Position numbers and translations under genes: made by a program. The notes under the pieces were generated by a model, which searched no databases, was not told the origin of the DNA, and saw only the letters and a list, made by a program, of their open reading frames with translations. Below are positions 55,928-59,320 of a DNA stretch of 64,000 bases, one piece after another (position 1 is the first letter of the stretch; each line of letters opens with the position of its first letter). This DNA comes from an uncultured Selenomonadales bacterium. Lineage in GTDB: Bacteria; Bacillota; Negativicutes; Selenomonadales; Selenomonadaceae. The stretch is from NCBI GenBank assembly GCA_900315155.1, contig OMYB01000002.1:1-64000 (forward strand), in the 5' to 3' direction.

Positions 55928-55973
55928 AAGGACCGCAGCAAACCGTCACGGAATGCTGCAGTCCTTATTTTTT
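55928..55973 (+). terminator. Intrinsic terminator after metQ
   Basis: AAGGACCGCAGCA (55928-55940) and TGCTGCAGTCCTT (55954-55966), one mismatch, then ATTTTTT. Confidence 0.88.
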
Positions 55974-55999
55974 AAAGCAACGACCGTAAAGGGTAGCCG

Positions 56000-56131
56000 C
56001 TATGTGTAAAGGCGGTCGAGATTACAGCCATAGCTGCCAATCGAGAGAATGACTCTGCCGGGATAAAAATGATACAACGGCTTTTTCTCAATCGGATCGA
56101 GCGCAACCGCCGCCAGTTGCCCATAATTCAT
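56000..56131 (-). pseudogene. amrS fragment, third copy
   Basis: From ATG 56131 the minus strand reads MNYGQLAAVALDPIEKKPLY, HFYPGRVILSIGSYGCNLD, then RLYT and a stop. This matches an internal stretch of amrS (TNYGQLAAVALDPIEKK... to the first radical SAM Cys) and is broken after the first cluster cysteine. Its first codon overlaps the stop of the AAA ATPase gene. Confidence 0.85.
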
Positions 56132-57970: not shown

Positions 57971-57997
57971 GATGAAAGGCAAAAAATTTACGGAAAC
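57971..57997 (+). pseudogene. Peptidase C-terminal relic beside amrS copy 2
   Basis: The plus strand reads DERQKIYGN, matching the ERKKIYGN end of the frameshifted peptidase remnant at 49924-50339, in the same tail-to-tail position relative to amrS. It shows that the duplicated unit once included the peptidase 3' end. Confidence 0.55.
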
Positions 57998-58830
57998 TAC
58001 ACATTGCCTAAGTGCACGTAGCGCAAGTACTGCCGTGCGACGCGCTGCAGCTGCTGCAGCTTTGCCACAGGTGTCGGCGCGATGTCACAGTGGTAGCGCG
58101 GGAAATAACGCGAAAGATGCAAGGGAATATCCGATGACAGCGAGGCCAGCCACTGCGCGGCCGCCGCGATCTCCTCGGGATCGTCGTTGCGCCCCGGGAT
58201 GACGAGCGTCGTGACCTCGATGTGCACGCCTGCGGCAACCGCCGCCACGATCGTGTGCTGCGTCGTACGCAGGTCGCCGCCCAGCCAGTCATAGTAGGCC
58301 TGTGTAAAGCCTTTGAGGTCAACGTTCATGGCATCGACCAGTGGCAGCAATTTTTGCAGTGGCTCCTCGCAGATCTGTCCGTTCGTCACCAGCACAACGG
58401 CCAATCCCTGTGCGCGCAGCAGCGGCGCACAATCGAGCAAATACTCATAGCTCACCAGTGGCTCATTATACGTAAAGGCCACGCCGATACTCCCCCGCTG
58501 TTCCCGTGCCTCCACAGCCAGCGCCACGAGCGTCTCCGGCGACACGACCTGCGTGCGCACCTCCCCCGCCCGTGCACGGGAAATCTCATGGTTCTGGCAG
58601 AACGGACAGTCGAGATTACAGCCATAGCTGCCAACCGAGAGAATGACGCTGCCAGTATGAAAATGGTACAGCGGCTTCTTTTCTATCGGGTCGAGCGCAA
58701 CCGCCGCCAGCTGCCCATAATTCGTGCAGACCATCCGTCCATCCACACACGCCCGCGCCCCGCAGAAACCACTCTGTCCCTCGCGCAGATGGCAATGACG
58801 CGGGCACAGTCCACAGATCACATCCGCCAT
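57997..58830 (-). CDS. amrS: AmrS-type radical SAM protein, copy 2
   Basis: Nearly the same protein as the gene at 50381-51226. It has CGLCPRHCHLREGQSGFCGAR, GCNLDCPFCQN, GVAFTYNEPLVSYEYLLD and MNVDLKGFTQAYY. Differences are mostly conservative. The ATG at 58830 (MADVICGLCP) is 8 nt after AGGAGG; an ATG one codon earlier is equally possible. 277 residues. A TATAAT box lies about 22 bp upstream. Both copies keep an open frame and all cluster cysteines, so both may be active. Confidence 0.92.
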   Translation of the reverse strand: MADVICGLCPRHCHLREGQSGFCGARACVDGRMVCTNYGQLAAVALDPIEKKPLYHFHTGSVILSVGSYGCNLDCPFCQNHEISRARAGEVRTQVVSPETLVALAVEAREQRGSIGVAFTYNEPLVSYEYLLDCAPLLRAQGLAVVLVTNGQICEEPLQKLLPLVDAMNVDLKGFTQAYYDWLGGDLRTTQHTIVAAVAAGVHIEVTTLVIPGRNDDPEEIAAAAQWLASLSSDIPLHLSRYFPRYHCDIAPTPVAKLQQLQRVARQYLRYVHLGNV

Positions 58831-58911
58831 CATCAACACCTCCTTGTCGTCATTATACTATATACCCACCCCTTTCGTCCCTTCTGGCTATCTTACCTGT
58901 ACGAAAATTTA

Positions 58912-58940
58912 TTGACACAGCATCAAAGAGCGGATATACT
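58912..58940 (+). promoter_or_regulatory. Strong promoter with no obvious gene
   Basis: TTGACA (58912-58917), 17 bp, TATACT (58935-58940). The following 100 bp contain no open frame with a ribosome binding site. It may give a small RNA or a second, longer transcript for the 32-residue peptide at 59112. Confidence 0.7.
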
Positions 58941-59025
58941 GAGGAATCCTCGGTAAATTTCTTTGAGTCAAACGCATATCCATACTGAATACGGCAAACG
59001 TCAGGTAATTTGTCCATCTTACAAT

Positions 59026-59054
59026 TTTCCATTCCACGCAGATTATGCTATAAT
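59026..59054 (+). promoter_or_regulatory. Promoter of the small peptide gene
   Basis: TTTCCA (59026-59031), 17 bp, TATAAT (59049-59054) with an extended TGC before the -10. Transcription would start near 59061. Confidence 0.75.
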
Positions 59055-59058
59055 AAGA

Positions 59059-59086
59059 GCGGCCCAGCGCTGGCACGCTGAGCCGC
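59059..59086. other. GC-rich hairpin in the peptide leader, possible antisense terminator
   Basis: Arms 59059-59069 and 59076-59086 form 11 pairs around a 6-nt loop. On the plus strand one position is a C/A mismatch. On the minus strand the same position is a G-U pair and TCTTATTAT follows. It therefore forms better in a minus-strand transcript and could end one. Confidence 0.5.
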
Positions 59087-59111
59087 AAAACTGAATAAGG
59101 AGGTGGTTCCG

Positions 59112-59210
59112 ATGTACTTTGAGACGAAAGGCCTCAAGTTCTTCGTTTCAGGCAAGTTTGTTGTAGCGTTTGCAACATCGATAGCTATACTTGTCGAAGC
59201 ACTCGGATAG
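59112..59210 (+). CDS. 32-residue hydrophobic peptide, candidate type I toxin-like
   Basis: An ATG follows AAGGAGGTGG with ideal spacing, after an extended -10 promoter and a 5' hairpin. The product starts MYFETKGLKFFVSGKF and ends VVAFATSIAILVEALG. Residues about 17-31 form one possible membrane-spanning segment, preceded by a basic, aromatic N-terminus. It ends at TAG, 24 bp before its own terminator. A near-consensus promoter on the opposite strand (59278-59307) would make RNA complementary to the 3' half or all of this message. The layout resembles type I toxin-antitoxin loci, but the peptide was not matched to a known toxin family. A regulated small membrane protein is the alternative. 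Confidence 0.65.
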   Translation: MYFETKGLKFFVSGKFVVAFATSIAILVEALG

Positions 59211-59233
59211 TGACCATCACTCATTCGACCGAG

Positions 59234-59262
59234 AGGACGCCTGGCAGGGCGTCCTTTTGGTT
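59234..59262 (+). terminator. Intrinsic terminator of the small peptide unit
   Basis: AGGACGCC (59234-59241) and GGCGTCCT (59248-59255) around a 6-nt loop, then TTTGGTTT. Confidence 0.85.
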
Positions 59263-59277
59263 TCTATTTACACTATC

Positions 59278-59307
59278 ATTATACGCCTTGACGGGAGTAT
59301 CCGTCAA
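59278..59307 (-). promoter_or_regulatory. Strong convergent promoter facing the small peptide gene
   Basis: TTGACG (59302-59307), 18 bp, TATAAT (59278-59283) on the minus strand; the start would be near 59271. The only thing downstream is the antisense strand of the peptide gene. The -35 is part of a hairpin, CTTGACGG/CCGTCAAG (59287-59308). It lies just after the putP stop and has no T-run of its own. Confidence 0.7.
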
Positions 59308-59320
59308 GCGGCAGACTTCA

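Follow-up and report, generated by a model that had tools for sequence, protein, structure and literature searches.

A 2025 paper listed type I toxin-antitoxin systems from only three phyla before adding its own cyanobacterial case. Detection of such systems is difficult, since gene callers miss peptides of this small size and the sequences change rapidly in evolution. In the AapA/IsoA systems of Helicobacter (Epsilonproteobacteria), the antisense RNA IsoA covers mainly the 5' region. The structured AapA mRNA encodes a peptide of about 30 residues with one amphipathic helix, a long-distance interaction between its 5' and 3' parts hides the Shine-Dalgarno sequence, and the systems occur in multiple chromosomal copies with the antisense RNA transcribed from an opposing promoter (PMC6733600, PMC8309996). 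Control in two steps, in which an inactive mRNA is processed and then attacked by the antisense RNA, has been established in other type I systems with locked mRNAs (PMC6733600, PMC11228461). The type I systems TxpA/RatA, BsrG/SR4 and YonT/SR6 of Bacillus subtilis are found in prophage or prophage-like loci, encode longer toxins (58 aa for YonT) and have RNAs that overlap at the 3' end. Among these, TxpA/RatA and BsrG/SR4 are Firmicute chromosomal systems in which the antisense RNA starts beyond the 3' end of the toxin gene. YonT/SR6 is likewise chromosomal, and its antisense RNA, which also starts beyond the 3' end of the toxin gene, overlaps the toxin mRNA (PMC5848175). The Fst/Ldr family comprises short hydrophobic peptides, ~33 residues long, that are controlled by antisense RNAs (PMC7472228).

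In this work, a locus from an uncultured Selenomonadales bacterium is compared with these systems. The window is the whole stretch of DNA that was analysed, 64,000 nucleotides of contig OMYB01000002.1. We consider it likely that this chromosomal locus represents a module of the type I toxin-antitoxin-like kind and belongs to a new Negativicutes family, with transcription, repression and toxicity being inferred. Sequence comparison shows a conserved peptide, a conserved opposing promoter, strand-specific hairpins and a covarying hairpin within the ORF, and it supports a pairing between the leader and the 3'UTR. The initial annotation had already read the locus as a type I layout, and the retention of the opposing promoter together with the peptide supports that reading. 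The extended -10 promoter, 5' hairpin, Shine-Dalgarno sequence, 32-residue ORF and terminator that it reported are all present, each in its reported place. The features of the locus are as follows.

59026-59054, plus strand: sense promoter TTTCCA-17-TATAAT with an extended -10 (TG; TATGCTATAAT) and a predicted start at ~59061
59059-59086: 5' hairpin of the mRNA, GCGGCCCAGCG/CGCTGAGCCGC; on the minus strand, the predicted terminator of the antisense RNA
59058-59050, minus strand: tail of the predicted antisense terminator, TCTTATTAT
59090-59103, plus strand: conserved leader ACTGAATAAGGAGG, which includes the Shine-Dalgarno sequence
59097-59103, plus strand: Shine-Dalgarno sequence AAGGAGG
59112-59210, plus strand: ORF of 32 codons with its ATG at 59112, encoding MYFETKGLKFFVSGKFVVAFATSIAILVEALG, a putative membrane peptide and the toxin candidate
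59121-59149, plus strand: hairpin within the ORF, GAGACGAA (59121-59128) / TTCGTTTC (59142-59149), with silent-site covariation
59211-59227, plus strand: 3'UTR stretch CCATCACTCATTC, which in predicted folds pairs with the leader and Shine-Dalgarno sequence (long-distance interaction)
59228-59264, plus strand: intrinsic terminator of the sense mRNA, also delimited as 59228-59261
59307-59278, minus strand: antisense promoter TTGACG-18-TATAAT, with a predicted start at ~59271 and a predicted RNA of ~220 nt that spans the whole mRNA

With its TG extension included in the score, the sense promoter came first among 3164 plus-strand positions in the region, and nearly all homologues have a TATAAT-like -10 at the same place. 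The opposing TTGACG-18-TATAAT promoter, which the initial annotation had placed past the terminator, matches at 11 of 12 positions and ranked first of 3173 minus-strand positions over 3.2 kb. Simple scans over 1.3 kb returned three promoters, against 0.8 expected, and three terminators, against 1.1 expected. This excess alone is only modest; it is the comparative evidence from homologous sequences that puts the locus far beyond chance. A GTG start at 59103, which would add 3 residues, was rejected, the ATG at 59112 being conserved among the homologues.

In the preferred reading, a structured mRNA of ~205 nt would encode the 32-residue membrane peptide, which is predicted to form a single helix. 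As long as this mRNA is full-length, its leader and Shine-Dalgarno sequence would pair with the 3'UTR just past the stop codon, keeping translation low until the RNA is processed or refolds. The strong opposing promoter past the terminator would produce an antisense RNA of ~220 nt, complementary to the whole mRNA and ending at the 5' hairpin, and by base-pairing this RNA would expose the mRNA to cleavage. Loss of the antisense RNA would allow the peptide to be made, and the membrane would then probably be disturbed. That the Negativicutes family uses two-step control of this kind (inactive mRNA, processing and antisense attack) is inferred from the anatomy of the locus and from comparison.

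Several other features were observed in the window. The -35 of the antisense promoter lies within a local inverted repeat (CTTGACGG/CCGTCAAG, 59287-59310) between the locus and a convergent putP-like gene; the repeat is absent from the homologous loci. Upstream of the locus (58912-58955, plus strand) there is a strong promoter-like sequence, TTGACA-17-TATACT, followed by a small hairpin, and transcription from this site could yield either an extended sense RNA or a short RNA unconnected with the locus. A short fragment on the minus strand (55972-56131, MNYGQLAAVALDPIEKKPLYHFYPGRVILSIGSYGCNLD) nearly duplicates the start of a radical SAM activase-like gene (57997-58839, minus strand), with an ATPase gene adjoining, and looks like the relic of a partial duplication.

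The family was extended stepwise by profile searches and includes ~38 intact loci and several relics in ~22 genomes of one class, identified as Negativicutes because the named members are Selenomonas sp. or Selenomonadaceae. The first relatives are Selenomonadaceae: UBA2897 (the other member of the window's genus), Selenomonas sp. SUG490, RUG102, RUG371 and RUG12578. The next relatives, from two genomes of other families, have 28-residue peptides with a C-terminal ELCR, and the farthest, from a dozen further genomes of the class, have 29-residue peptides of the type MRFETKxFKLTVSSGFLWMIYQIIxELWK. The members have in common the leader AAAACTGAATA.AGGAGGTG, a peptide of 28-33 aa with the core M.(L/F)(E/K)TK.F.L.VS, a terminator and then the opposing promoter. 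A second copy, 57% identical, is present elsewhere in the window's own genome, and across the family there are up to five copies per genome at unrelated sites. The copies occupy unrelated chromosomal positions, and the flanking genes differ among those that are not orthologous. Occurrence across the family is patchy and relics are frequent; patchy distribution and truncated relics are usual for toxin-antitoxin genes and thus fit the toxin-antitoxin reading. The decayed copies (L045, L209/L219, L233, L234 and L239) keep the promoter, the 5' hairpin and the N-terminus, after which they have stops, break off, or are missing the 3' half together with the opposing promoter.

A narrower profile gave no match beyond the window's own genome in 398 sampled genomes of the phylum. 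A phage or plasmid origin is unsupported, as no homologue was found in collections of phages, plasmids and viral contigs. A weak PHROG match (phrog_36738, E 0.004) was obtained for the window peptide only and for none of its relatives, and was treated as chance. Most of the weak profile matches in genus g11, which have an internal TGA, seem to be chance similarities within a different gene, and a pattern scan of genome contigs mostly returned unrelated Shine-Dalgarno matches, with only those in Selenomonas/Selenomonadaceae being real. Searches of Pfam and NCBIfam with the window peptide and four relatives gave no match to any type I toxin family, even at E 10, and neither database has a family that covers the peptide. 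Rfam had no match at the window locus up to E 5 and only tRNAs elsewhere in the window, and at gathering scores 14 homologous loci gave nothing but a tRNA. Nothing relevant was found in the literature on type I systems in Selenomonas or Negativicutes, with subscription papers and T1TAdb lying outside the search. The family looks like a new one of a known kind, and it is outside the type I families modelled in Pfam and NCBIfam.

The position of the opposing promoter was assessed in the first set by scoring all minus-strand positions within ~3.1 kb of each intact locus with a sigma-70 matrix. The opposing promoter was the top-ranked minus-strand site in 21 of 22 loci, 15-19 nt beyond the terminator; the offset was 33 nt in L203, where the terminator pattern matched early, and 23 nt in L207. 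The initial annotation had suggested looking in relatives for conservation of the peptide and the opposing promoter, and had named homologues with the peptide and without the promoter as grounds for refutation. Both elements are conserved, and one intact locus, L208, is without a top-ranked opposing promoter. In the later set, a minus-strand TATAAT is found at +13 to +21 in each of the ten loci whose promoters are canonical, and it ranks 1, 1, 1, 1, 2, 7, 2, 1, 5 and 1. The other six loci of that set form the TVSD subfamily (L226, L227, L228, L229, L238 and L240) and have a different promoter element, TTCTAA-N13/14-(G/A)C(A/G)TA, which is found at the sense position in 5 of 6, at the antisense position in 6 of 6 and elsewhere only once in 288 kb. 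The pattern was derived from the same sequences, so that these counts are evidence of specificity and not of discovery. They suggest that both promoters of the subfamily changed type together, and the TTCTAA-type promoters are possibly read by an alternative sigma factor. A coding function for the antisense strand was rejected, as no minus-strand ORF equipped with a ribosome site is conserved in 20 loci.

All of the intact members encode a peptide with one hydrophobic segment, a stretch of ~19 residues that is C-terminal to a polar N-terminus. The best mean hydropathy over 19 residues is 2.08 for the window peptide and 1.2-2.25 in the first set, and a conserved lysine (K15 of the window peptide) lies inside the segment. 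An ORF of fewer than 60 codons with a hydrophobic, probably membrane-spanning segment is a general trait of type I toxins, and the family has it. The value of pS exceeded that of pN in 16 of 17 pairwise comparisons (e.g. 0.70 vs 0.23 for the window locus and L033). Judged from these substitutions, the peptide is under purifying selection.

The two hairpins that flank the coding region were examined for strand specificity. The kind of mismatch that is tolerated tells which RNA uses a hairpin because an A-C mismatch in one RNA is a G-U pair in its complement. The initial annotation had pointed to a C/A mismatch in the plus-strand RNA of the leader hairpin that becomes G-U in the minus-strand RNA, and this is confirmed for the pair 59064-59081. 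Among 22 distinct 5' hairpins the ratio of antisense-only to sense-only G-U pairs is 16:1, and among 16 distinct 3' hairpins the ratio of sense-only to antisense-only G-U pairs is 22:0. With these biases the 5' hairpin behaves as a part of the antisense RNA, where it is the predicted terminator, and the 3' hairpin as one that ends the sense RNA. Sense-only G-U pairs again prevail in the 3' hairpins of the later set (16:3). The 5' stems of that set are nearly perfect, which makes the bias uninformative, and the 16:1 ratio was not replicated. Antisense termination is also less certain there because the U-run is poor. The proposal that the 5' hairpin ends the antisense RNA is therefore backed by the first set and cannot be confirmed in the later one.

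In most members, the fold of minimum energy joins the leader (GAAUA..AGGAGG) to the sequence that lies between the stop codon and the terminator; in the window, fold prediction allows 59093-59099 to pair with 59220-59226. RNAalifold on a MAFFT alignment recovered the terminator only, a result that is limited by the alignment, which mis-registers the leader and the 3'UTR, and the pairings were therefore tested locus by locus. In the later set, where the 3'UTR partner is a plain anti-Shine-Dalgarno sequence (CCUCCcUAUUC), the cognate pairing was -11.6 vs -10.2 kcal/mol for permuted partners (0 of 20000 permutations). In the window-type set the values were -7.1 vs -5.8 kcal/mol (45 of 20000 permutations). 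For the window locus taken singly, the pairing is weak, at -6.4 kcal/mol with 53 of 300 shuffles as good, and sequestration of its Shine-Dalgarno sequence, expressed as a pairing probability, was not above that with shuffled 3'UTRs. Support for the lock comes only from the test of cognate against permuted partners and from single-locus shuffles in the later set. Across the family, the pairing of leader and 3'UTR is one that covaries when compared in this way. The helix usually has one mismatch, which may keep the lock openable, although this is an inference.

A further hairpin is formed within the ORF by nucleotides 10-16 and 32-38 in nearly all members. In 38 distinct sequences the pair 12/36 is A-U in 19, G-C in 17 and G-U in 2, and the pair 15/33 is G-C in 24, U-A in 10, C-G in 3 and U-G in 1, with no mismatches. 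Of the core cells, 184 of 190 are paired, against a mean of 151 and a maximum of 167 in shuffles and no more than 88 in slid registers. Because both pairs fall on third positions of codons, conservation of the protein does not account for the covariation. Fisher tests of this silent-site covariation gave 1.2e-8 and 7.6e-9 without phylogenetic correction; the loci are related and not independent, and the statistics overstate the significance.

The chief rival to the toxin-antitoxin reading is that the peptide is a non-toxic small membrane protein with a regulatory or stress role, for example by binding a membrane enzyme, and that the antisense RNA merely tunes its amount. All of the RNA-level evidence fits this explanation equally well. 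Conservation also extends over the entire peptide and takes in the polar ETK motif at the N-terminus, which a pure pore-former might not need, but the ETK codons also build the ORF hairpin and their conservation need not concern the protein. We regard this explanation as unlikely: the number of copies per genome at unrelated sites, the patchiness and the frequent relics are more typical of toxin-antitoxin modules, and a locked mRNA with a full-length antisense RNA would be elaborate control for a harmless product.

It is much less probable that the locus acts through a regulatory RNA from either strand, with the ORF being incidental or secondary, as in a dual-function RNA. The conserved folding is very strong (z -5.2 for the sense RNA and -4.7 for the antisense RNA against dinucleotide shuffles) and there is covariation inside the ORF. 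However, the reading frame, start codon and Shine-Dalgarno sequence are conserved across the members, the substitutions are mostly synonymous, and the peptide retains its length and composition even where the nucleotide sequence has diverged. A chance assembly of promoter- and terminator-like sequences between two convergent genes, to which the inverted repeat around the window's opposing -35 near the end of the putP-like gene and the only moderate scan excess might point, is already refuted by the recurrence of the arrangement with the peptide at unrelated positions in the ~22 genomes and has almost no probability left.

With the type I toxin-antitoxin module as the preferred reading, a wider one can be offered tentatively, which falls a little short of what we would call probable. 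The family would be a class-wide, unrecognised type I family of the outer-membraned Firmicutes, with DNA constrained on both strands by the peptide code, the locked mRNA and the full-length antisense RNA. In one branch, the promoters of toxin and antitoxin would both have changed to a shared type that is not sigma-70-like (TTCTAA-N14-GCATA), which would imply that one alternative sigma factor controls both RNAs. Two features of the family are unusual and directly testable: the covariation at silent codon positions inside the ORF and the suggested joint change of promoter type. The ~38 intact loci serve as natural variants whose comparison by itself reveals the promoter, the terminator, the long-distance pairing and the ORF hairpin. 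Selenomonas and its relatives, which are common bacteria of the rumen and mouth, gain a candidate, open to testing, for the control of stress or the arrest of growth.

The described systems differ in how closely they resemble this family. Like Fst and Ldr, the Negativicutes peptide is hydrophobic and of similar length with a putative antisense RNA, but it has no match to these families in Pfam or NCBIfam even at E 10. The Fst locus has convergent RNAs with a common bidirectional terminator and direct repeats, which are not seen at the Negativicutes locus. The Bacillus systems are likewise chromosomal systems of Firmicutes with an antisense start beyond the toxin gene, whereas the Negativicutes family has a predicted full-length overlap in place of an overlap at the 3' end, no phage relative was found for it, and its peptide is unrelated by Pfam/NCBIfam search. 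With AapA/IsoA the family has in common the short peptide with one predicted helix, the structured mRNA with a predicted long-distance interaction over the Shine-Dalgarno sequence, the multiple chromosomal copies and the opposing promoter. Unlike IsoA, the Negativicutes antisense RNA is predicted to start past the terminator and cover the whole mRNA, and the two are from different phyla, so that the likeness is one of layout only, with no peptide homology demonstrated. By analogy, the closest system in layout is AapA/IsoA, which has a locked mRNA and a peptide of 30 residues; where the placement of the antisense promoter is concerned, the closest are the 3'-overlapping systems of Bacillus.
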